IMG/VR virus record: IMGVR_UViG_3300009103_000149
Location: 1-24,324 of that record
DNA from: a virus
Length of the DNA stretch: 24,324 nucleotides
Reading direction: 5' to 3' (one strand)
The translations under genes were made by a program, and so were the position numbers. The first letter of the stretch is position 1, and every line of letters begins with the position of its first letter. A model generated the notes under the pieces. The model was not told the DNA's origin. It did not search any database and worked only from the letters and a program-made list of their open reading frames with translations. Shown one piece after another: positions 1 to 20,162 of the stretch.

Positions 1-85
1 TAATGTTGTTAGGTTGGAGATTTACCCGACAGGGGCAAGCAGTCCTTCTTCTGGGGATCAATTTTTGGTGACAATTATAGGATGA
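1..85 (+). CDS. 3' end of an unknown upstream gene (partial)
   Basis: An open frame (codons from base 2) enters from the left edge and ends at TGA 83-85. It encodes 27 residues ending in FLVTIIG. The stop overlaps the ATG of the next gene in an ATGA arrangement, the same coupling used by the two following gene junctions, which supports a real coding end. The tail is too short to assign. By position, just before small membrane proteins and the ejection-protein block, it may be a virion or tail gene, but that is inference from gene order. Confidence 0.55.
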   Translation, partial: NVVRLEIYPTGASSPSSGDQFLVTIIG

Positions 86-501
86 CAAATGTTCTTGAAC
101 AACTTGGGGGTCAGGAAGCGATGGAGGGAGTGGCGAGAGATTTAATGGGCGAGTATGGCTGGCTCTTTGTGTGTGCATTTGTGGCACTCATGGCCAAAGA
201 CATATTGATGAACATGGTGCAGGGCATGATGGTTTTTGTGGGCAACGAGTGGAAGAACGATGAGATTTTATACCTGTCAGGAAGGAAGGCACGGGTGATT
301 CGTAAGGGTTGCCTAAACACTACATTCCAGATGGATGATCGCTTGACTTCAATGATCGTTCCAAATTCGCAACTCAAAAGTTTAACCGTGGAAAGAAGAC
401 TGCCAAACGGTCATGCCGAAATGTATTTACCGAAAGGCCCAGAGATGATGGGGCCGATGGAAGTGAAGATTGTTGAATCGGGGGCGAAGAAAAAGCGATG
501 A
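82..501 (+). CDS. Minimal MscS-like mechanosensitive channel protein
   Basis: A 139-aa protein with one hydrophobic segment at about residues 26-52 (WLFVCAFVALMAKDIL then a Met-rich stretch). A beta-rich segment follows at about 53-105 with the order seen in MscS: a short loop carrying NDEI, then SGRKARVIRKG, then NTTFQMDDR, then the hallmark IVPNSQL. In MscS this is the end of pore helix TM3 followed by the beta domain. The usual TM1 and TM2 and the large cytoplasmic alpha/beta vestibule are missing; the protein ends in a short basic tail. Start and stop overlap neighbours by 4 bp on both sides, so it is translated with them. It may form a small membrane pore or alter envelope tension during infection or lysis; that role is inferred. 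The MscS resemblance is read by eye from motif order. Confidence 0.7.
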   Translation: MTNVLEQLGGQEAMEGVARDLMGEYGWLFVCAFVALMAKDILMNMVQGMMVFVGNEWKNDEILYLSGRKARVIRKGCLNTTFQMDDRLTSMIVPNSQLKSLTVERRLPNGHAEMYLPKGPEMMGPMEVKIVESGAKKKR

Positions 502-821
502 GGGATTATGATCCAGATGCGATGTTTCCTCGCAAGCCAAAGCCAAAGTCAAGGGTTGATGGAAAGGCTATACGCTGGATCATTATAGTTGCCTTGGCAG
601 CGATGGCAATTTGGGTTGGGGCGGGATGCAAAAATGTTCGCTCCATAGACGCAGGGTTCGGTGGGTTGGAGGTGGAGTATTGGCCAAGCCATCCCTCGCA
701 AGAAGACAAATCAATTTTTGATTTTGGTATGACAACAAATAGGTTGAAGGCTGTTCCAGCAAGCTGGGATGCCCCGGCAAATTGGAATGGGCCTTTGTTG
801 ATGCCAATGAAAAGGAAATAA
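498..821 (+). CDS. Small single-pass membrane protein, possible lipoprotein
   Basis: A 107-aa protein. A charged N-terminus rich in Lys, Arg and Pro (residues 1-25) precedes a strong hydrophobic helix at about 26-42 (WIIIVALAAMAIWVGAGC). A Cys follows directly after Ala-Gly. This resembles a lipoprotein signal, but the residue at -3 is Gly rather than Leu or Val, so the lipobox is not canonical. The remaining 60 residues are polar and would lie outside the cytoplasmic membrane. Its ATG overlaps the stop of the MscS-like gene by 4 bp. No family is recognised; a spanin-like or envelope-anchored role is possible but unsupported. Confidence 0.65.
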   Translation: MRDYDPDAMFPRKPKPKSRVDGKAIRWIIIVALAAMAIWVGAGCKNVRSIDAGFGGLEVEYWPSHPSQEDKSIFDFGMTTNRLKAVPASWDAPANWNGPLLMPMKRK

Positions 822-826
822 TTATT

Positions 827-1324
827 ATGGCTAAAATACGATATGACGTTACCCGATGGGACGTTTCAGTAGTTCACGACAGTCATCCCACAGAAGCGGG
901 GTGTGTCGATTCGGTGATCCTCGGCGTGACTGCCTTGGAGCAGGAGAGTGGTAAATCCGCATATAAAGATGAACGCATTAGTGTTCCTCATCAACCGCTT
1001 GCAGAGTTTGAGGCGGGAGCGGAAGCCTTCATAGAAGGGGTGCTGGGGTCACAGGGTTGGTATCTTGAGCTACAGACTCGGATTGCATCACAGATGTCTG
1101 CCCCGGTGGCAGCACCGTCAAGCCGAGAGAAGCCTGACTTCTCCAAGATGACAATTGGCGATGGTTATTCTGATTTGCCGAGTGAAGAGAAGGAAGAGGA
1201 GAAGGCTGAAGAGAAGGCTGAAGAGAAGGCTGAAGAGAAGCCAGCCGAGGAAACTCCAAAGCCAGCGGCAAAGAAAAAGGCGACCAAGAAGAAAGAGGAG
1301 GCAAAGGAAGAATCATCTGAATAA
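827..1324 (+). CDS. Unknown protein with Lys/Glu-rich repeat tail
   Basis: A 165-aa protein. ATG 827 is preferred because GGAA lies about 10 bp upstream; an in-frame ATG at 782 would overlap the previous gene deeply. Residues 1-95 look globular (MAKIRYDVTRWDVSVV onward). From about residue 118 the chain becomes low complexity, with repeated EEKA units, then Ala/Lys-rich sequence and a Glu-rich end, likely an extended helix or disordered tail. No family is recognised. The neighbours suggest a virion-associated or accessory protein. The stop overlaps the next ATG (TAATG). Confidence 0.75.
   Translation: MAKIRYDVTRWDVSVVHDSHPTEAGCVDSVILGVTALEQESGKSAYKDERISVPHQPLAEFEAGAEAFIEGVLGSQGWYLELQTRIASQMSAPVAAPSSREKPDFSKMTIGDGYSDLPSEEKEEEKAEEKAEEKAEEKPAEETPKPAAKKKATKKKEEAKEESSE
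1196..1243 (+). repeat. Four tandem 12-bp units inside a gene
   Basis: The unit GAAGAGAAGGCT occurs four times in a row with minor changes (first unit GAGGAGAAGGCT, last GAAGAGAAGCCA). It is in frame and encodes Glu-Glu-Lys-Ala repeats (last unit ends in Pro). This is a simple coding microsatellite-like repeat. Confidence 0.9.
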
Positions 1325-4173: not shown

Positions 4174-7100
4174 ATGCCAATTAGAATAGAAGTTAAAAAC
4201 CCAAGGGGGAAAGACACCTCTTCTGAATACATAACTTTTCCTGATTACTTTCCATATGAAGATATGGAAAACGCAGTTAGAGAGAAGTTTCCCAATAAAC
4301 ATTGGCCAGAAGAAACTCCTATTCCTGAAAACGAGAAACCTGTTGGAAAAGGCATATGGGATAGGTTTATGGATGCTGGCTGGAAAGCTCACGACCAAGC
4401 CCAAAAAGATTATGCTTTTGGTTCAGCTATACTCCAAACCTCTACTGAAGAAGCGACCGAATATTTAGAAAACTCATACCAAAAATGGAAAGCTAATCCA
4501 ACAGCCACAAACGAATACGAACTGTTAAGCGCGGAATTTTTCGGGGAAACCTTTGGTAGTATCGCTAGAGATATGGCTTTAGGTATATCTACAGGTGTCG
4601 CCGCTGGAATAGTAAGCACTCCATTAGGGGGTATTATTACAGGTGGTGGGGTAGTAGCTACTGCCCAAGGGGTTACTGCTAAAGGTGGTTCTATAAGAAA
4701 TACCTACTTTGGAGAAAGGTGGAAACAAGACCAAGAAGGGTCTCAAAATATTGAAGCGGCATATGAAACAGCCAGAAAAGTATCTAATTCTGATGCTGCT
4801 ACCGCAGTAGCGGAAGCCGGTGTAGCAATAATGGTTCCTGTACCGGGATTTGGAAAAGGACTCACTAGAGTTGGCACAAAAATAAGTAACGAACTTATGT
4901 TTGATGCTACTGTAGGTGCATCAGGGTCGGCAATATCGGATGCATATGCTGTATCTCAAGGGGTTGATCGTGGAGATAGATGGGAGAATGCTTTTCGTTC
5001 TGGATTACAGGAAATGATAGGGGGTTCCGTGCCTACCGCAGTTCGTGGAATGACGGAGTGGGGTGTGTATGTAACTGATTTACGAGCAGCGCAAGATGCT
5101 GCTAAAGTGAATGAAGACTTAATTGACGATCTAGTAGAAATCCAAGCTGAAGCTCCCCCAGAAGATAAGAGAAAAATTGCTGTAGAGATACAGAAAGCTC
5201 AAGAGCGTATTGAGGATAGTAAAAAGAAGATAAAAGATATTAAGGAAGGGAAGGTTCCTTCTTCAAAAGTCCTGTCTTATGATTGGGAAAACCCGACTGG
5301 AGAAGCGATTTTCATTCCTCAATTTGATGAGAACGGGTCTTTAGAGTCCACTAAAACAGCTACTCCCGCTAATATAGAAGAGCTATCTGCTGCTGGCAGC
5401 ATACCTAATATTTTCACAGACGAAATATATAGTATTCAAAATGAACCTAATAGGGCAGCTATAACGCATTCAAATGGAGAAAAATATGAGGTGTTTAAAG
5501 ATGGTTCTGTCAGTCCTTACCCATTAAAAACGAAAGCAAAAATAGTAGAAACTCCAAATTCTGATGCTGGAAGTTTAAATGAGGGAGGAGAAGTGTCCAA
5601 TACTTTTAAAGCTCCCATACCCACCACTAGAAGTTGGGCAGAGTTTGCAGAAAGTTTTGGATATGAGTTGCCAATTTTGGGGTCGCAGATCGTAAAACCA
5701 GAAAGATATAAAGATTACAAAGGCGACAGAACAAAAAGCCAAACTTTTATAGATAGATACACACTAGAAGATAACGATACCTTTAACAAAGACCTTTTAA
5801 TCAAGGATTTTCCTATATTTGGTTTAGACATCCATAAAAACGCACTACCTAATAAAATTTCAGAAGGCATAAGAAGCCTAGGCCATGTTCCTGAATTCAT
5901 GAATAAAATTCTCAATGATCTATCATTAGGGAATATAAAAATAAATCTAGAAAAAAGTTCTGGATTAGGCAAACAATCAGAAGGCGAGAAACCACTAGTC
6001 TATGCCGACATTCCCAGAATTCAACTTCAAGGGAGAGAAGGTACTCCTATATCGCTACCTGTTACTGATTTCGGATACACAATACCAACTACTCTTAATG
6101 CTGACGGCACTAAAAACTTTGCGGAACAACTCTATGGAAAAGATATTAAGAGCATCCACAGAGTTGTTAAGAATAGAATGGAACAAATCAGAGAAAATAG
6201 AGTTTCCGTATTAACTAGAACTGAAGAATATGCCAAGAAATATAAAGAATTAGTTAAGAGTAGGGCAATTGCTAGGGAAGCCGGTAAAAGCACCAAACAA
6301 TTTAATAAACGAATAGATGAATTAGAGAAGAAGATAGAAAAGGGTAGTAAATTTGTAAAAGAAACTTGGGGTATTCCGTTACCAGATGACGCCACCTTAA
6401 AAACTATAGCTCCCTTTGTATCGCACCCAGAAAAACCAGAAATTGGCCCATATCCACACTTTGGGGACGAAAGAAACTTCCCTAAAGACATCAGACCATT
6501 TGCTAGAATATTGGAGGGTGATCCTAGGGGTGGAAGAGTTAAAGGTGCGTATGCCGATTTGGATGACAGATATTCGGCTGCCGGGTTTGGTCGCCTTGTC
6601 AAAACAATGCTGAATGAATATCGGCAGAGGGAAGCTAAACTACCCAATTCAAAAAGACTAGACCCAAACTGGAAATGGACAGATTCCAAAATTAAAAAGT
6701 TTATAGAGGAGTTCCACAGAGTTGTTGCTGGAAATACTATAGGAATAAATAAGGAAGGTATGCTAACCGTAGATGAAGTTAAACGCATACTTGCTGGAGA
6801 AAGTGTTTTTAGTGATGTTTTAGAAGGGGTGCAATATATAGACGCAAACGCAGAAGCTGCTGCGCTTGATAGATTAGAAATGGCACTACTTCGTACAGAG
6901 GTACATCATAATAGTAGTATAGCTGAAGCTTTGGCTCAAGAGGAGAGAAATACTATATTACAAAAAGCAGAAGGGCCGCTAGATGCTCTTGCTTCAGGAA
7001 TGCATCAAAAAGGAATGATGGATACTGGTAATTTTGATTATCTAGCTTTTACCTTCCAACAACTTAAAATTGCCCAGTATGCCAGAGATGCCAAGGAAGA

Positions 7101-8244
7101 AGGCACTACCTTTACGCCTCCTCCTACGATTTCAGTTGATCTAATAGAAAAGAAACTAGCGCAAGAAGTAGCTGAAGGAAAATCAAAGGGAGATTTTGTT
7201 AAGTTTGAGCTACCTTTTGGAAATGTTAACATTACTTTAAAAGAAATAGACAGATCGAGAGAGTTTTATTCTAATGATCTACTGTTACCTAATAGACAAG
7301 GCCAAAAAATCAGCCTTAAAGATTTAGGTGAAAATGAAATTGAAGCCCAAAAAACAAAATTCTATCGCAAACTCAATGCAGACTTTAAAGATTTAGAGAA
7401 CAATTTAAAAAATGTTCTGAAATGGTTGTGGTATACAGACACTAGTAAATGGATGGCTCCATATACTAAAGGAGCTAAAAAAGGACAGCCTAATCCAAAC
7501 GATATTTTGTTTAAAATACCCAAGAAGAAACTAGAAGCTGTTAGAAACATAGAGGACAAAGGACAACCGCAAGCTAGTCCAAGTCAATTTTTAGGTAAAG
7601 TAGGAGATATAAAATCGAAACAACCTCTATTAATACAATCGCATCTGAAAACAATTGAAGATTGGATGAAGAAAGGCAAAAAAATAGATTTTGATAGAAT
7701 ACAAAAAATAATGCTTTCGGATTTAGAACCCGCCTTTAATAGAAACAGGAGTCTAATAGACGAGTTCCTAAAAACAGTTGTTGAATGGAAACGAAATAAA
7801 GACCCTTATTATGCTCAAGAAAAAACCCAACCAATCCGAAGGCACATGCGTAAGATTTTAGCTGGATTCAATGCCTTGGGTAAAGTACAGGGAGCCGTGT
7901 ATGCGAATATGTTTTTTAATCCCGGCGCAGTACCTCAAATATATACGGGATTAGTTGGTTTAGCAGCTCATCTGCACCATGTTGGAATACGAAATGTGAA
8001 GGAGTTTGCAAAAGCTATAGGAACTAATATTACTAAAGCTGTTGATATGGCTTGGAACGATGGAGTTAAGGGAATTTATAGAACTATGTATAACCTACCT
8101 TGGCAAGTAGTTCGTGATTTAATTAGACTTGTGACTCCGAGTAGAGAGACAATAGAGAAAATGGTTCCCCCAATTCTTCTAGATTGGTCTGATGCAAAGT
8201 GGGATGCTTTCTATAAAAAACATAGTCTAGAAGACTATTTATAA
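4174..8244 (+). CDS. Giant internal virion/ejection protein, N-terminal partner (1356 aa)
   Basis: A 1356-aa protein. Residues 1-45 carry a pattern common at the start of large phage internal proteins: a short beta start, then ITFPDYFPYEDMENAVREKF. A Gly/Ala-rich hydrophobic region at about 134-168 and another at about 208-230 could insert in membranes. A charged coiled coil lies at about 301-360, followed by long mixed regions without a clear catalytic motif. The C-terminal 100 residues are helical (NPGAVPQIYTGLVGL). The gene ends 15 bp before the next giant ORF, which begins mid-architecture for this class, so the two may be halves of one polyvalent/ejection protein. No SD is visible; only 7 bp separate it from the upstream stop. 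Confidence 0.6.
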   Translation: MPIRIEVKNPRGKDTSSEYITFPDYFPYEDMENAVREKFPNKHWPEETPIPENEKPVGKGIWDRFMDAGWKAHDQAQKDYAFGSAILQTSTEEATEYLENSYQKWKANPTATNEYELLSAEFFGETFGSIARDMALGISTGVAAGIVSTPLGGIITGGGVVATAQGVTAKGGSIRNTYFGERWKQDQEGSQNIEAAYETARKVSNSDAATAVAEAGVAIMVPVPGFGKGLTRVGTKISNELMFDATVGASGSAISDAYAVSQGVDRGDRWENAFRSGLQEMIGGSVPTAVRGMTEWGVYVTDLRAAQDAAKVNEDLIDDLVEIQAEAPPEDKRKIAVEIQKAQERIEDSKKKIKDIKEGKVPSSKVLSYDWENPTGEAIFIPQFDENGSLESTKTATPANIEELSAAGSIPNIFTDEIYSIQNEPNRAAITHSNGEKYEVFKDGSVSPYPLKTKAKIVETPNSDAGSLNEGGEVSNTFKAPIPTTRSWAEFAESFGYELPILGSQIVKPERYKDYKGDRTKSQTFIDRYTLEDNDTFNKDLLIKDFPIFGLDIHKNALPNKISEGIRSLGHVPEFMNKILNDLSLGNIKINLEKSSGLGKQSEGEKPLVYADIPRIQLQGREGTPISLPVTDFGYTIPTTLNADGTKNFAEQLYGKDIKSIHRVVKNRMEQIRENRVSVLTRTEEYAKKYKELVKSRAIAREAGKSTKQFNKRIDELEKKIEKGSKFVKETWGIPLPDDATLKTIAPFVSHPEKPEIGPYPHFGDERNFPKDIRPFARILEGDPRGGRVKGAYADLDDRYSAAGFGRLVKTMLNEYRQREAKLPNSKRLDPNWKWTDSKIKKFIEEFHRVVAGNTIGINKEGMLTVDEVKRILAGESVFSDVLEGVQYIDANAEAAALDRLEMALLRTEVHHNSSIAEALAQEERNTILQKAEGPLDALASGMHQKGMMDTGNFDYLAFTFQQLKIAQYARDAKEEGTTFTPPPTISVDLIEKKLAQEVAEGKSKGDFVKFELPFGNVNITLKEIDRSREFYSNDLLLPNRQGQKISLKDLGENEIEAQKTKFYRKLNADFKDLENNLKNVLKWLWYTDTSKWMAPYTKGAKKGQPNPNDILFKIPKKKLEAVRNIEDKGQPQASPSQFLGKVGDIKSKQPLLIQSHLKTIEDWMKKGKKIDFDRIQKIMLSDLEPAFNRNRSLIDEFLKTVVEWKRNKDPYYAQEKTQPIRRHMRKILAGFNALGKVQGAVYANMFFNPGAVPQIYTGLVGLAAHLHHVGIRNVKEFAKAIGTNITKAVDMAWNDGVKGIYRTMYNLPWQVVRDLIRLVTPSRETIEKMVPPILLDWSDAKWDAFYKKHSLEDYL

Positions 8245-8259
8245 GAAGGAGAAAAGGGG

Positions 8260-11079
8260 ATGCAACTTCCTCCTGTAAAAGCCCTTCTAAAGAGAAACTT
8301 CATAGACAAATACCACGACCTTGCTTCCATAATGGCCAGAGTTGGTGTTGGATTGCAGGGTCAATCGCTAGACGAAAGACTAATGGAAATAAAAGATCAT
8401 GTTAATGCTGCGTATAAACTAGACGCACTCGAAACAATTCTTGGAGAAAAGATGACTGATCTAAACCTGTTCCAAGATAGATTAGGCGAAGCAATTATTG
8501 AAGCTAATGTGGATGTACTTAAATTTGCGGATTGGTTGAAAGCCAGACATGCTCCATCCAGAAATGCCAGAATTGCCGAAATTAATCCCGAAATGGCTAC
8601 TCCAGACAAACCGGGTTCGGGTATGACTAATGTACGCGCAGAAGAAATAATGGTTGAAGCTACGAGAGAAGGTAAGACTGAAGACTATAAGAAACTGGCA
8701 GAAGATTTCATAGACCCTTTACTTGCTGAAACATTAACTATTGCCCATGAGAGCGGCCTGATTACTCCTGAAGAACTACAGCGTCTTCGGACACATTACG
8801 AACATTATATACCATTGAGGGGGAAAGAAGATTCTGATGAAGTTATACAAGTTACGGGCAATGGTATAGAAAATTTCGGCCCTGAATGGAAGCGATCTTT
8901 AGGAAGAACTTCCGAGGCTCCAACTGAACAGGTATTGCCTTATATATTTCAGCAATATTTCAACATTGTTTATCGAGCGGAGAAGAATAAAGTTGCCCAA
9001 TCTCTACGACAATTTGTTATAGAAAACCCTAATGATGAGATAAAATTAGGTAGTCCTGACTATGTTCGACGGTTAACAAACTTGACAGATGATCGTCAGA
9101 TAGTTCAATTAGTGAACGATCCTAATTGGTATAAAGGAAAGGACATTTTAGCTTTAAAAGTTGAGGGAAAGAATAAATATTTGCGGATTAAAAACGCTGC
9201 TTTAGCACACGAACTAAAAGGAACGGGTGCTGCTGGATTAAAAGAATATACTAGAGGTGTGGGGCAGCTAACTAAAATACTTTCAAAGCTCAACACTCAA
9301 TACAACCCGTCTTTTATTCTTCCTAACTTTGCTAGGGATATACAGTTTGCTAGTCATCAACTTTCGGCAAGCCAATCTAAAGAGCTTTCCAAAAAGGTAG
9401 CTAACATAATGAATATTCCGGCTTTACTTTCCGGCAATCGAATTGGAAAGAATAAAAAAGGCGTTATAAACGATGCTTTTATGGCTATTTGGAGATATAA
9501 CGATCCTCTCCAAAGAGGAGATGCTAGGAAAATGCCAACTGATCCTAGCGAAATAGCGATAGCAGAGAAAATGGCAGAACGCCTCGATGAGATGATTGAA
9601 CATGGGGGTAAAATATCTTTTTATGGTTATAACGATTTTCAAAGTCATGTCAGTACGATCCAGAAACTATCGAAAGAAGTTAATAAAGCTAATGCCGGTA
9701 AAGAAACACCTAAAGCTATAAAAGCCTCTAAAGATTTGATTTCTTGGTTTGCTAAAGCAATGGAAGGAGTCAACGGTTCTTTTGAAACTTCTACTCGTCT
9801 AGCTATTTATTCAGTAATGCGAGATTACGGTTTCACTCCGCAACAAGCTGCATACACATCCAGAAACACCACTATCAACTTTACTAGAAAAGGTAGGTAT
9901 GGTTCGACATTGAATGATTTGTATATGTTTTTTAACCCTAGTATACAAGGGAGTTATAATATCTATAAAAATCTATTTCACACAGATAAAGGAAAGAAGA
10001 TATTTTTCAACATATTTGCAGGAGGGTTTGCGTTAGAGGCGTTAAACCAAGCTATTTCTGGAGAAGATGAAGAGGGTATTTCTTACTATGATAAAATCCC
10101 AGAATGGAAGCGGAAGCATAATATGATATTGATGAATCCGTGGACAGGGAAACAAGCGTTAGCAATACCATTGCCATACGGATATAATGTGATTCACTAT
10201 ATGGGAAGTAAAGCAACTCAAGTTGCTAGAGATGGGTATTTGAGATCAATAGGAGGATACGAAGAAACCCAATCCGTACCTAATGCTATGCGACCTTCTG
10301 AAGCTGCAATGCATATCATGTCAGCAGCGGCAAACGCCTTTAATCCTATTGGGGGGGATTCAACAATCGCTAAAATGATAAGCCCCGATGTTCTTGATCC
10401 TTGGTTAGCCGATCTCCCATCTAATAGAGATTGGAAGGGAGCCACTATTGTTCCAGAACCAAGCCCATTCTCTCCATATGTAAAACCTGAATCTGAAAGG
10501 TATTGGCAGACAGTAGGAGTTCCATTTAAGGCAGTAGCTAAAACTATAAACAAAATAACAGGTGGGAACGAAGTGGAGTCAGGCTGGATGGATTTTAGTC
10601 CTGAAGCCCTAGAACATTTGACAGAATATTATACTGGGGGTGCGGGTAAATTCACAATAAATTTCTACAAACTGATGGAGAAAATGGCTACTGGAAAAGA
10701 AATTATTGCCAACGATGTTCCTATAACTAGGCGTTTTGTCGCTGCTCCTTCTAGTCATTATGAGTTGGAACGATTTAAGGAACTTCGGGAAATCTCACAT
10801 CAAGCTACGGATTTATATAAAGCCTACCGAAAAGCCGGTAGACATGCTGATGCCAAAACTCATCAAAAACTAAATAAATCTTTATTTAGAATACAGGCAT
10901 CTATTAAAAGTGCTGAATCTAGAATAAGAAAAGTTAATCAAAGCATACGAGTAGTTACTGCTTCTAAATCTCTTCCATACCAAGAGAAAATGGCTAGAAT
11001 AAGAAAGCTGAAGCAGCTTAAAAACGATGCTATGCGTAGAACACACGCAAGATTCATAGACCTTGTAAATCCGATATAG
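8260..11079 (+). CDS. Giant virion protein with LPD38-like domain (939 aa)
   Basis: A 939-aa protein with a good SD (AAGGAG upstream of ATG 8260). Residues about 91-122 contain LKARHAPSRNARIAEINPE followed by GSGM, a pattern typical of the core of large phage polyvalent proteins. Residues about 500-660 match the LPD38 layout: NTTINFTRKGRYGS, FFNPSIQGSYN, then PEWKRKHNMIL and IPLPYGYN. The C-terminal 100 residues are basic helices. In relatives I know, these segments sit inside one very long chain, so the N-terminus here looks like an internal breakpoint. Likely role: delivered with DNA from the virion as part of the internal core. The domain call is by eye; ejection is inferred from gene order. 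Confidence 0.65.
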   Translation: MQLPPVKALLKRNFIDKYHDLASIMARVGVGLQGQSLDERLMEIKDHVNAAYKLDALETILGEKMTDLNLFQDRLGEAIIEANVDVLKFADWLKARHAPSRNARIAEINPEMATPDKPGSGMTNVRAEEIMVEATREGKTEDYKKLAEDFIDPLLAETLTIAHESGLITPEELQRLRTHYEHYIPLRGKEDSDEVIQVTGNGIENFGPEWKRSLGRTSEAPTEQVLPYIFQQYFNIVYRAEKNKVAQSLRQFVIENPNDEIKLGSPDYVRRLTNLTDDRQIVQLVNDPNWYKGKDILALKVEGKNKYLRIKNAALAHELKGTGAAGLKEYTRGVGQLTKILSKLNTQYNPSFILPNFARDIQFASHQLSASQSKELSKKVANIMNIPALLSGNRIGKNKKGVINDAFMAIWRYNDPLQRGDARKMPTDPSEIAIAEKMAERLDEMIEHGGKISFYGYNDFQSHVSTIQKLSKEVNKANAGKETPKAIKASKDLISWFAKAMEGVNGSFETSTRLAIYSVMRDYGFTPQQAAYTSRNTTINFTRKGRYGSTLNDLYMFFNPSIQGSYNIYKNLFHTDKGKKIFFNIFAGGFALEALNQAISGEDEEGISYYDKIPEWKRKHNMILMNPWTGKQALAIPLPYGYNVIHYMGSKATQVARDGYLRSIGGYEETQSVPNAMRPSEAAMHIMSAAANAFNPIGGDSTIAKMISPDVLDPWLADLPSNRDWKGATIVPEPSPFSPYVKPESERYWQTVGVPFKAVAKTINKITGGNEVESGWMDFSPEALEHLTEYYTGGAGKFTINFYKLMEKMATGKEIIANDVPITRRFVAAPSSHYELERFKELREISHQATDLYKAYRKAGRHADAKTHQKLNKSLFRIQASIKSAESRIRKVNQSIRVVTASKSLPYQEKMARIRKLKQLKNDAMRRTHARFIDLVNPI

Positions 11080-11080
11080 T

Positions 11081-11752
11081 ATGGAACCTATAATTTCTGA
11101 CGAGAGAGTTCGGCAATTGGAGAAATCACTCCTGATTTCCGATCAATTCACTCAATCTAGAAAGCCCGAATCTCTTTACGGTAAACTAATGCCGCGAGAG
11201 GCTTTAAGTCCAGTTTTAGAAAAATTCATAGAGGTTATGAAGCAGAGAGAAGGGAAGGGGGAGAAAGGGAGAGCCGGATTCTCCTACCTAGTTCCCGGTG
11301 AAGATAAACCTACTATTGGGTACGGGCATCAGATGGTTAAAGGGGACGAGGAAGTATTTAATAAATTATTTGGCGATGATATTAACTACGATGATCTGCT
11401 TGGGGGTAAAACTGCTTTGACAGAAAAGCAGATGGATAAGTTAGCTAGACGAGATGCTAAATGGAAATACCAAAAACTCCAAGAAGCCCTACCCAATCTC
11501 AAAACCTTCTCTGACGATCTAGTAGTTTCCCTCGCAGACAGTTATTTTAGAGGAGGTCTTTCTGGCAGTCCAAAGACGCTTGGGTTACTTAAAGAAGGGA
11601 AGTTTTCCGAAGCGAGCAAGGAGTTTTTAGATAATGAGGAATACCGACAATCCAAGGGGGGATATGGGAAAAAAGGACACCTTCCCGGCATAGCAAAACG
11701 CATGGAAATCCACGCCAGAGAAATGCTAAACGAAGAAAGTAGAAAAAAATAA
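11081..11752 (+). CDS. Phage lysozyme (GH24-like muramidase)
   Basis: A 223-aa protein that would cleave peptidoglycan glycan strands. The T4-lysozyme-type active-site block appears at residues 57-83: Glu57 (in KQREGKG) as candidate acid, then YLVPGED, then PTIGYGH (77-83), where the Thr of TIGYGH corresponds to catalytic Thr26 of T4. The Asp20 equivalent is not obvious; the nearest candidate is Asp75. The C-terminal half has the helical pattern of the family, with SLADSYFRGGL and GLLKEGKF. A 50-residue N-terminal extension precedes the domain. There is no signal peptide or membrane anchor. It follows the giant virion genes by 1 bp with no SD, so it may be a virion-associated lysin as well as the endolysin. 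Confidence 0.75.
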   Translation: MEPIISDERVRQLEKSLLISDQFTQSRKPESLYGKLMPREALSPVLEKFIEVMKQREGKGEKGRAGFSYLVPGEDKPTIGYGHQMVKGDEEVFNKLFGDDINYDDLLGGKTALTEKQMDKLARRDAKWKYQKLQEALPNLKTFSDDLVVSLADSYFRGGLSGSPKTLGLLKEGKFSEASKEFLDNEEYRQSKGGYGKKGHLPGIAKRMEIHAREMLNEESRKK

Positions 11753-19497: not shown

Positions 19498-19746
19498 ATG
19501 AGAAGTAAAACAAGAGTATTGAGATATATGACAGACGAACAAATAAGAGATGCAGGGTTGACCGCATTTAAATTGCGAGCAGCAGAGAAATTCAACATGG
19601 GAATCAAAGAGCATAATCCAAATGGAGATAAAGGTTTAATTAAGATGACCGACTTGCAGCGGATTAAAGCGGCCCAAGAGGAGTGTATGGATTTATGGTT
19701 TTACCTATACACGATGGAGCTTGCTGCTTTAAAGGGAGGAGCCTAG
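19498..19746 (+). CDS. Small MazG-like / all-alpha NTP pyrophosphatase-like protein
   Basis: An 82-aa helical protein with a strong SD (GGGGAG). The segment EHNPNGDKGLIKM followed by AAQEECMDLWFYLYTMEL resembles the core of very small phage MazG-like proteins, where the E-E-x-x-D motif (here EECMD) binds metal and nucleoside triphosphate. It is shorter than classic MazG, and the second E-x-x-D pair is not evident, so activity is uncertain. Its stop overlaps the GTG start of dCMP deaminase, consistent with joint control of the nucleotide pool. Confidence 0.45.
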   Translation: MRSKTRVLRYMTDEQIRDAGLTAFKLRAAEKFNMGIKEHNPNGDKGLIKMTDLQRIKAAQEECMDLWFYLYTMELAALKGGA

Positions 19747-20162
19747 TGGAACCGAAGTATGCTAGACTATCTTGGGAGGAGTATGCCCTGCAATTAGCTA
19801 CGGCAGCAGCGGCAAGGAGTGAAGACCCATACGAGAGGGTTGGTGCTTGCGTGTTGAGGCTGGACTATTCGGTAGCTGGAGTTGGGTATAACGGTGCGCC
19901 TACTGGAGTAGAAATAGATTGGAGTGACCGGGATAGACGGCGCGAGAGGGTTGTTCATGCGGAGGTTAATGCTTTGAGGTATGTCCGGCCTGACGAGGGG
20001 TATATTCTAGCGAGTACTTTAATGCCGTGTCAGGATTGTATGAGAACAGCAGCCGCCTTTGGAATTGAGAGGATAGTTTATCGAGAGGTTTATTCCAAAG
20101 ACGAGACTGCTATTTCTCTGGCTGAAGAATTCGGGATAGCTTTGGAGCGGCTACCTGATTAA
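19746..20162 (+). CDS. Deoxycytidylate (dCMP) deaminase
   Basis: A 138-aa enzyme converting dCMP to dUMP, the precursor for dTMP. Zinc-site motifs are complete: VHAEVNAL (His71, Glu73) and LMPCQDCMRTA (Cys95, Cys98); the substrate-loop YNGAPTG (48-54) is typical of the family. GTG 19746 is chosen because GGGAGG lies 6-11 bp upstream and the codon overlaps the previous stop (TAGTG); the longer open frame upstream would run through the MazG-like gene. The 3' end overlaps a convergent leftward gene by 12 bp. Confidence 0.92.
   Translation: MEPKYARLSWEEYALQLATAAAARSEDPYERVGACVLRLDYSVAGVGYNGAPTGVEIDWSDRDRRRERVVHAEVNALRYVRPDEGYILASTLMPCQDCMRTAAAFGIERIVYREVYSKDETAISLAEEFGIALERLPD

Follow-up and report, generated by a model that had tools for sequence, protein, structure and literature searches.

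The closest characterised miniature of the MscS superfamily is the 165-aa TcMscS from Trypanosoma cruzi (PDB 9bgu), which has neither TM1 nor the vestibule and is built of TM2, TM3 and the beta-domain (PMC12334622, PMC8282336). It is a heptameric tension-gated channel whose short helices deform the membrane and whose gating is mediated by lipids (PMC12334622), so that a reduced MscS of such a kind can be a channel, and TM1 is dispensable. Short MscS proteins of 176 aa are also encoded in Bacteroidota (L250 575–1102 and L251 532–1059, both on the minus strand). For cultured phages, the only MscS-like mention found in the literature is gp51 of the Paraglaciecola phage PANV1, with an HHpred match to MscS (6RLD, 99.7%) and a weak prediction of a single TM (PMC9239159).

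The gene considered in the present study occupies positions 82–501 (plus strand, ATG start) of the window, that is, of the whole 24,324-nucleotide stretch of viral DNA analysed (IMG/VR record IMGVR_UViG_3300009103_000149). Its predicted product of 139 aa, referred to below as mini-MscS, consists of the pore helix TM3 and the beta-domain only. As in TcMscS, this is a miniature without TM1 and vestibule, with the pore helix TM3, the beta-domain and a short membrane span; unlike TcMscS, which keeps TM2, the phage protein has one helix fewer, carries an acidic N-tail, is of phage origin and is coupled to a lipoprotein. With E. coli MscS and the PF00924 superfamily it shares the TM3 and beta alignment, the fold found by Foldseek and the invariant Asn of the PN motif, whereas the TM1/TM2 tension sensors, the vestibule and the Gly/Ala-rich TM3a are missing and additional invariant Arg residues are present. 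The Bacteroidota proteins are likewise vestibule-free and have the beta-domain, but they possess three hydrophobic helices, are chromosomal and fall outside the phage family. PANV1 gp51, compared by its published description alone, resembles the phage proteins in its MscS match and single weak TM.

Relation of the 82–501 gene product to MscS

The reading frame had been placed at exactly these coordinates in the original prediction, and it proved to be a conserved gene. Only 81 bases of the window precede it, and an in-frame stop at 10–12 excludes a longer form of the protein; there are no alternative starts. The ORF is considered a real gene because its product is 71–79% identical to those of relatives, with synonymous sites saturated and non-synonymous change low; in other pairs of the family, where dN/dS was measurable, it amounted to 0.04–0.15. 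Judged from these sequence comparisons, mini-MscS is a functional conserved gene under purifying selection and not a chance frame.

The Pfam profile PF00924 aligned with residues 40–102 of the window protein at 16.1 bits, under the cut-off of 20.2. The same profile was found in 31 of 35 relatives at E ≤ 1 (best E 6.5e-7) and, at E ≤ 0.001, in 24 of the 57 family members, for which no other family was matched. Searching the PDB with phmmer gave H. pylori MscS as the top match (E 0.02), in the TM3/beta register. Comparison of the 57 phage proteins with 11 cellular MscS proteins by hhalign resulted in a probability of 95.1% (E 3.4e-8) over residues 30–103 (73 columns), covering TM3 and the beta-domain with approximately 25% identity. 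The profile match to MscS expected from the first reading of the sequence was thus obtained.

The predicted structure led in the same direction. An AlphaFold2 model of the window protein, based on the 57-sequence alignment, had a mean pLDDT of 77.7, with block means of 84–95 at residues 11–50 and 79–90 at residues 51–100; it consisted of a helix (residues 11–53) followed by strands at 62–65, 68–75, 79–84, 90–94 and 103–105. One helix running into an MscS-type beta-domain had been predicted from the letters of the window, and the PF00924 matches of the relatives and this order of secondary structure elements agree with it. Foldseek comparison with the PDB returned 37 matches at E ≤ 1e-3, every one of them an MscS-family protein, with modest TM-scores of 0.42–0.52, so the predicted fold, when checked against the Lsm-like beta-domain, is MscS-like. 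Homology of mini-MscS to the MscS superfamily is therefore almost certain from these data, and the phage protein appears, as far as alignment and modelling can tell, as a member of this superfamily that is reduced to the pore module, TM3 and the beta-domain.

In a scan of GTDB genomes, for which a narrower alignment than the 35-member one served as the query, a single match was found, on a Flavobacteriales MAG contig with phage-type neighbours. When 297 genomes from the phylum of this MAG were searched with the phage profile, one short phage-like copy only was detected, and the next best matches were full-length MscS-type proteins, most of them in frames of 270–870 aa, which adds to the case for homology.

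Retained and lost elements of the pore module

The N-terminal tail (residues 1–26, positions 82–159, plus strand as for all parts of the gene) is net negative in all 57 members and ends in the family motif (E/D)NLIGEYGW, which has the form RDLMGEYGW in the window, and the average net charge of the beta-domain is positive; according to the positive-inside rule, the N-out/C-in orientation of MscS is therefore predicted, with the tail probably periplasmic. The single membrane helix (residues 27–53, positions 160–240) aligns with TM3a/TM3b and is composed of a hydrophobic part (27–38), a conserved K/R39 followed by D40, and an amphipathic part (41–53), the counterpart of TM3b. The hydrophobic run ahead of K39 comprises only about 12 residues; the predicted insertion energy of the pore helix (median 0.94 on a simple scale) is nevertheless within the range of cellular MscS TM3 (0.2–1.1). 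The MscS-type (Lsm-like) beta-domain follows at residues 60–107 (positions 259–402), and the C-terminal tail (residues 108–139, positions 403–498) has a Lys/Arg-rich end, low-confidence structure and no vestibule domain.

The absence of TM1/TM2 and of the vestibule, also claimed in the original prediction, was evident in the whole family: the ORF has room for neither, no second hydrophobic segment was found in the window protein or TM1/TM2 in any aligned member, and the aligned proteins stop shortly past the beta-domain, without the C-terminal alpha/beta vestibule and its side portals. A split gene with TM1/TM2 encoded upstream was considered and rejected, as the upstream gene in relatives encodes a soluble protein of 72 aa. 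The “PNS hallmark” noted at residues 94–96 stood in part only: N95 is invariant in the 57 members, but P94 is present in 30 and S96 in 12 of them.

The invariant or near-invariant residues of the family are W27, D60, R71, R74, T80, N95 and E104. The Gly/Ala-rich packing of TM3a is not kept, with 17% Ala and 7% Gly (24% together) at residues 27–38 of the 57 members, in contrast to a Gly/Ala-rich cellular TM3 such as VAVLGAAGLAVGLAL. This loss of pore packing, together with the invariant R71 and R74 in the beta-domain, would fit a membrane-anchored Sm-like ring that conducts nothing and serves as a scaffold or ligand-binding platform. We consider such a role improbable, given that throughout the family the helix runs straight into the beta-domain in the register of MscS. 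Even less probable, and very much so, is a modulator of host MscS, that is, a truncated subunit that co-assembles with host channels and poisons or opens them: exactly the pore helix and the ring domain have been retained, but the low identity to cellular MscS (~25%) and the family-specific invariant R71 and R74 speak against co-assembly, and the protein is not host-like in any branch seen. Formation of a conducting pore by mini-MscS is, on the evidence of its sequence, a matter of about even chances.

The coupled lipoprotein and the phage neighbourhood

The stop codon of mini-MscS overlaps the start of the next gene in the sequence ATGA (498–501, plus strand), so the coupling to a second membrane protein that had been noted is confirmed, and this second protein is a predicted lipoprotein. 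It is encoded at 498–821 (plus strand, 107 aa) and has a signal-like hydrophobic segment ending at an invariant Gly-Cys (residues 43–44) and a C-terminal PLLMPM, corresponding to the motif P-x-L-M-x-M. A predicted lipoprotein lies directly 3' of mini-MscS at 37 loci including the window (36 relatives). Most of these loci belong to the window's half of the tree, where coupling to such a lipoprotein is usual; in other branches, the +1 gene often encodes another small membrane protein. Small membrane proteins accounted for 56 of 108 close +1 genes (52%) against 93 of 1270 background pairs (7%), relatedness being ignored in this count, and a 4-nt stop/start overlap was observed for 46 of the 108 +1 genes of the family, compared with 148 of the 1270 background gene pairs. 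The third gene of the module in podovirus-like relatives, at 827–1324 (plus strand) in the window, encodes a 165-aa protein with an acidic Glu-rich tail (23–70% identity in relatives).

The lipoprotein had no match in Pfam. Its assignment as a spanin was not retained, since the phrog_6073 match (E 2.4e-5) spans residues 1–25, the signal peptide only. An Rz/Rz1 spanin pair couples a lipoprotein of the outer membrane to an inner-membrane protein that has a coiled coil in the periplasm; here, a predicted lipoprotein and coupling are present, and no coiled coil was seen in mini-MscS, which is predicted to be N-out with a cytosolic ring. Lipoproteins such as Cor take part in superinfection exclusion, and a pair of mini-MscS and its lipoprotein could block or steer the passage of DNA through the envelope, a role in DNA entry having been among the original suggestions; matches of the lipoprotein to the Cor-type phrog_1119 point this way. 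However, these matches are weak (E above 0.02) and lie mainly in the signal peptide, and mini-MscS sits among late-type virion genes, whereas genes for exclusion are as a rule expressed early or from a prophage, which makes this explanation rather unlikely.

Osmotic protection of the infected cell, another role offered at the outset, would require a tension-gated valve that stops early bursting at a stage when the host has ceased to make its own channels and its wall is under stress. TcMscS functions in osmoregulation as a channel gated by tension (PMC12334622, PMC8282336), and genes for MscL and other mechanosensitive channels have been reported in estuarine viruses in connection with salinity (PMC13288924). 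At the same time, PF00924 proteins above the cut-off are already encoded in each of 30 genomes sampled from the order to which the Flavobacteriales MAG belongs, and a valve leaves the lipoprotein partner unexplained; we therefore regard this role as unlikely, although less so than exclusion.

The survey of related phage contigs recovered a large family. In three scans of IMG/VR, the sets of which overlap, 52, 160 and 180 stretches were confirmed, and 80 each were kept from the second and the third. At least 139 distinct mini-MscS proteins from uncultivated phage contigs were obtained. Five family members used as queries gave no convincing match among the named phages of INPHARED, where the matches to full-length MscS were mostly in records resembling host sequence; PHROGs gave one weak match among the 57 members and no good match for the mini-MscS gene, and the PADLOC defence families gave none. 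Papers describing this family were not found in searches of an open-access library, which is not proof of their absence.

The member-bearing contigs are 4–170 kb long and vary in gene order. In the podovirus-like type, a tail fibre gene is upstream of mini-MscS and internal virion-type genes are downstream, so that the gene sits within a block of both; other contigs have PhoH/terminase neighbours or capsid or baseplate genes at the flanks. The position beside virion genes, as originally described, thus holds for relatives, where the upstream gene is tail-fibre-like or mini-MscS lies just past the tail-fibre genes; the window itself offers only its short upstream segment for this comparison. 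Some contigs carry two mini-MscS paralogues, adjacent or divergent, with one shorter and far diverged (L083 7983–9020; also L023, L197, L198 and L205 at ~7580–8400, and L186 4274–8384). Throughout one branch, a calcineurin-like phosphoesterase is encoded at −1 of mini-MscS (16 loci: L112 7198–7986, L124 7208–7987 and ~14 more). Near mini-MscS on phage contig L186 (6278–7258), a prepilin-like protein of 326 aa (GFSLIELLVVIAIIAILAALLLPAL...) is encoded, which may hint at the host group.

Association with lysis genes and a possible late role

A T4-type lysozyme-like ORF of 223 aa is located at 11081–11752 of the window (PF00959 18.9 bits; phrog_7 endolysin), directly after giant virion-type genes, and a relative is found at the same place in phage G004. 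Two ORFs at 4174–11079 (1356 and 939 aa) replace what is one giant ORF in relatives (in G001, of 3563 aa), and the second of the two matches large phrog_14770/616 proteins in their C-terminal part. Separately, a dCMP-deaminase-like ORF was recognised by eye at 19683–20162 from its HAEVNAL ... PCQDCM motif. A whole-contig search with PF00959 missed even the window lysozyme, and its negatives were therefore not used.

The window lysozyme has no obvious signal peptide, and among the window ORFs of up to 400 aa, a membrane segment was predicted only for mini-MscS and its lipoprotein. These two facts first suggested, by elimination, that mini-MscS is the holin itself, forming the pore through which the non-secreted lysozyme is released. 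The elimination failed when a conserved holin-like protein of 61–80 aa, followed by an Rz1-like lipoprotein with a LE.ELERR-type helix at its end, was found in six relatives (G001, G003, G004, G005, G006 and G009). This pair is exemplified by L263 12942–13454 (G004 31942–32457); it is within ~4 kb downstream of mini-MscS in G003 and G006 and far away in the other four. Neither G008 (48 kb) nor the window yielded a separate holin-like gene, which would favour the holin role of mini-MscS, but the corresponding region may be missing from the window, which is incomplete. Because the six relatives have their own pair, the role of sole holin is disfavoured, and we consider it quite improbable. To our knowledge, the MscS fold is not known for holins. 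The overlap of a small membrane protein gene with a lipoprotein gene, and the lysozyme or Rz-like genes near it in some branches, are shared with holin/spanin cassettes; the separate holin-like and Rz1-like pair of the relatives distinguishes mini-MscS from them.

The link to lysis proposed originally was therefore retained in a weaker form, the supporting gene context being present in some branches only. At eight loci of one branch, a T4-type lysozyme is encoded one to three genes upstream on the same strand, and other members of this branch have an Rz-like protein (phrog_739, E 6e-4) or a 2-TM protein at +1. No lysis gene accompanies mini-MscS in every branch. An accessory role in lysis is plausible; a lysis or late-envelope role of mini-MscS in general is put forward tentatively, at clearly less than even chances.

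The preferred reading, that of a lysis accessory, can be outlined as follows. Mini-MscS would insert N-out/C-in in the inner membrane, and its beta-domains would assemble into a cytosolic ring around the short pore helix, possibly heptameric like the rings of MscS and TcMscS. The GEYGW segment would then face the periplasm, where the lipoprotein partner should be located. Made late, together with the virion genes, the pair may change the permeability of the host envelope or its response to tension; most likely, it would assist in the control of lysis, through timing or as a safety valve or trigger, beside a separate holin. This proposal as a whole, in which a minimal MscS ring of the inner membrane acts late on the envelope together with a lipoprotein, is offered with the same reserve as the lysis role itself. 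Its broadest form, a widespread two-part phage device in which the smallest MscS-type ring so far observed and the coupled lipoprotein control late host membrane permeability across the periplasm, is a slightly more doubtful possibility.

The phage family of one-helix MscS-like proteins is large and nearly undescribed, and the coupled lipoprotein provides a concrete candidate partner for mini-MscS. Should mini-MscS conduct, no smaller MscS-type pore would be known to us, and the requirements of the fold for sensing tension could be read from it; it would also suggest that phages use parts of mechanosensitive channels to manipulate the envelope of the host.
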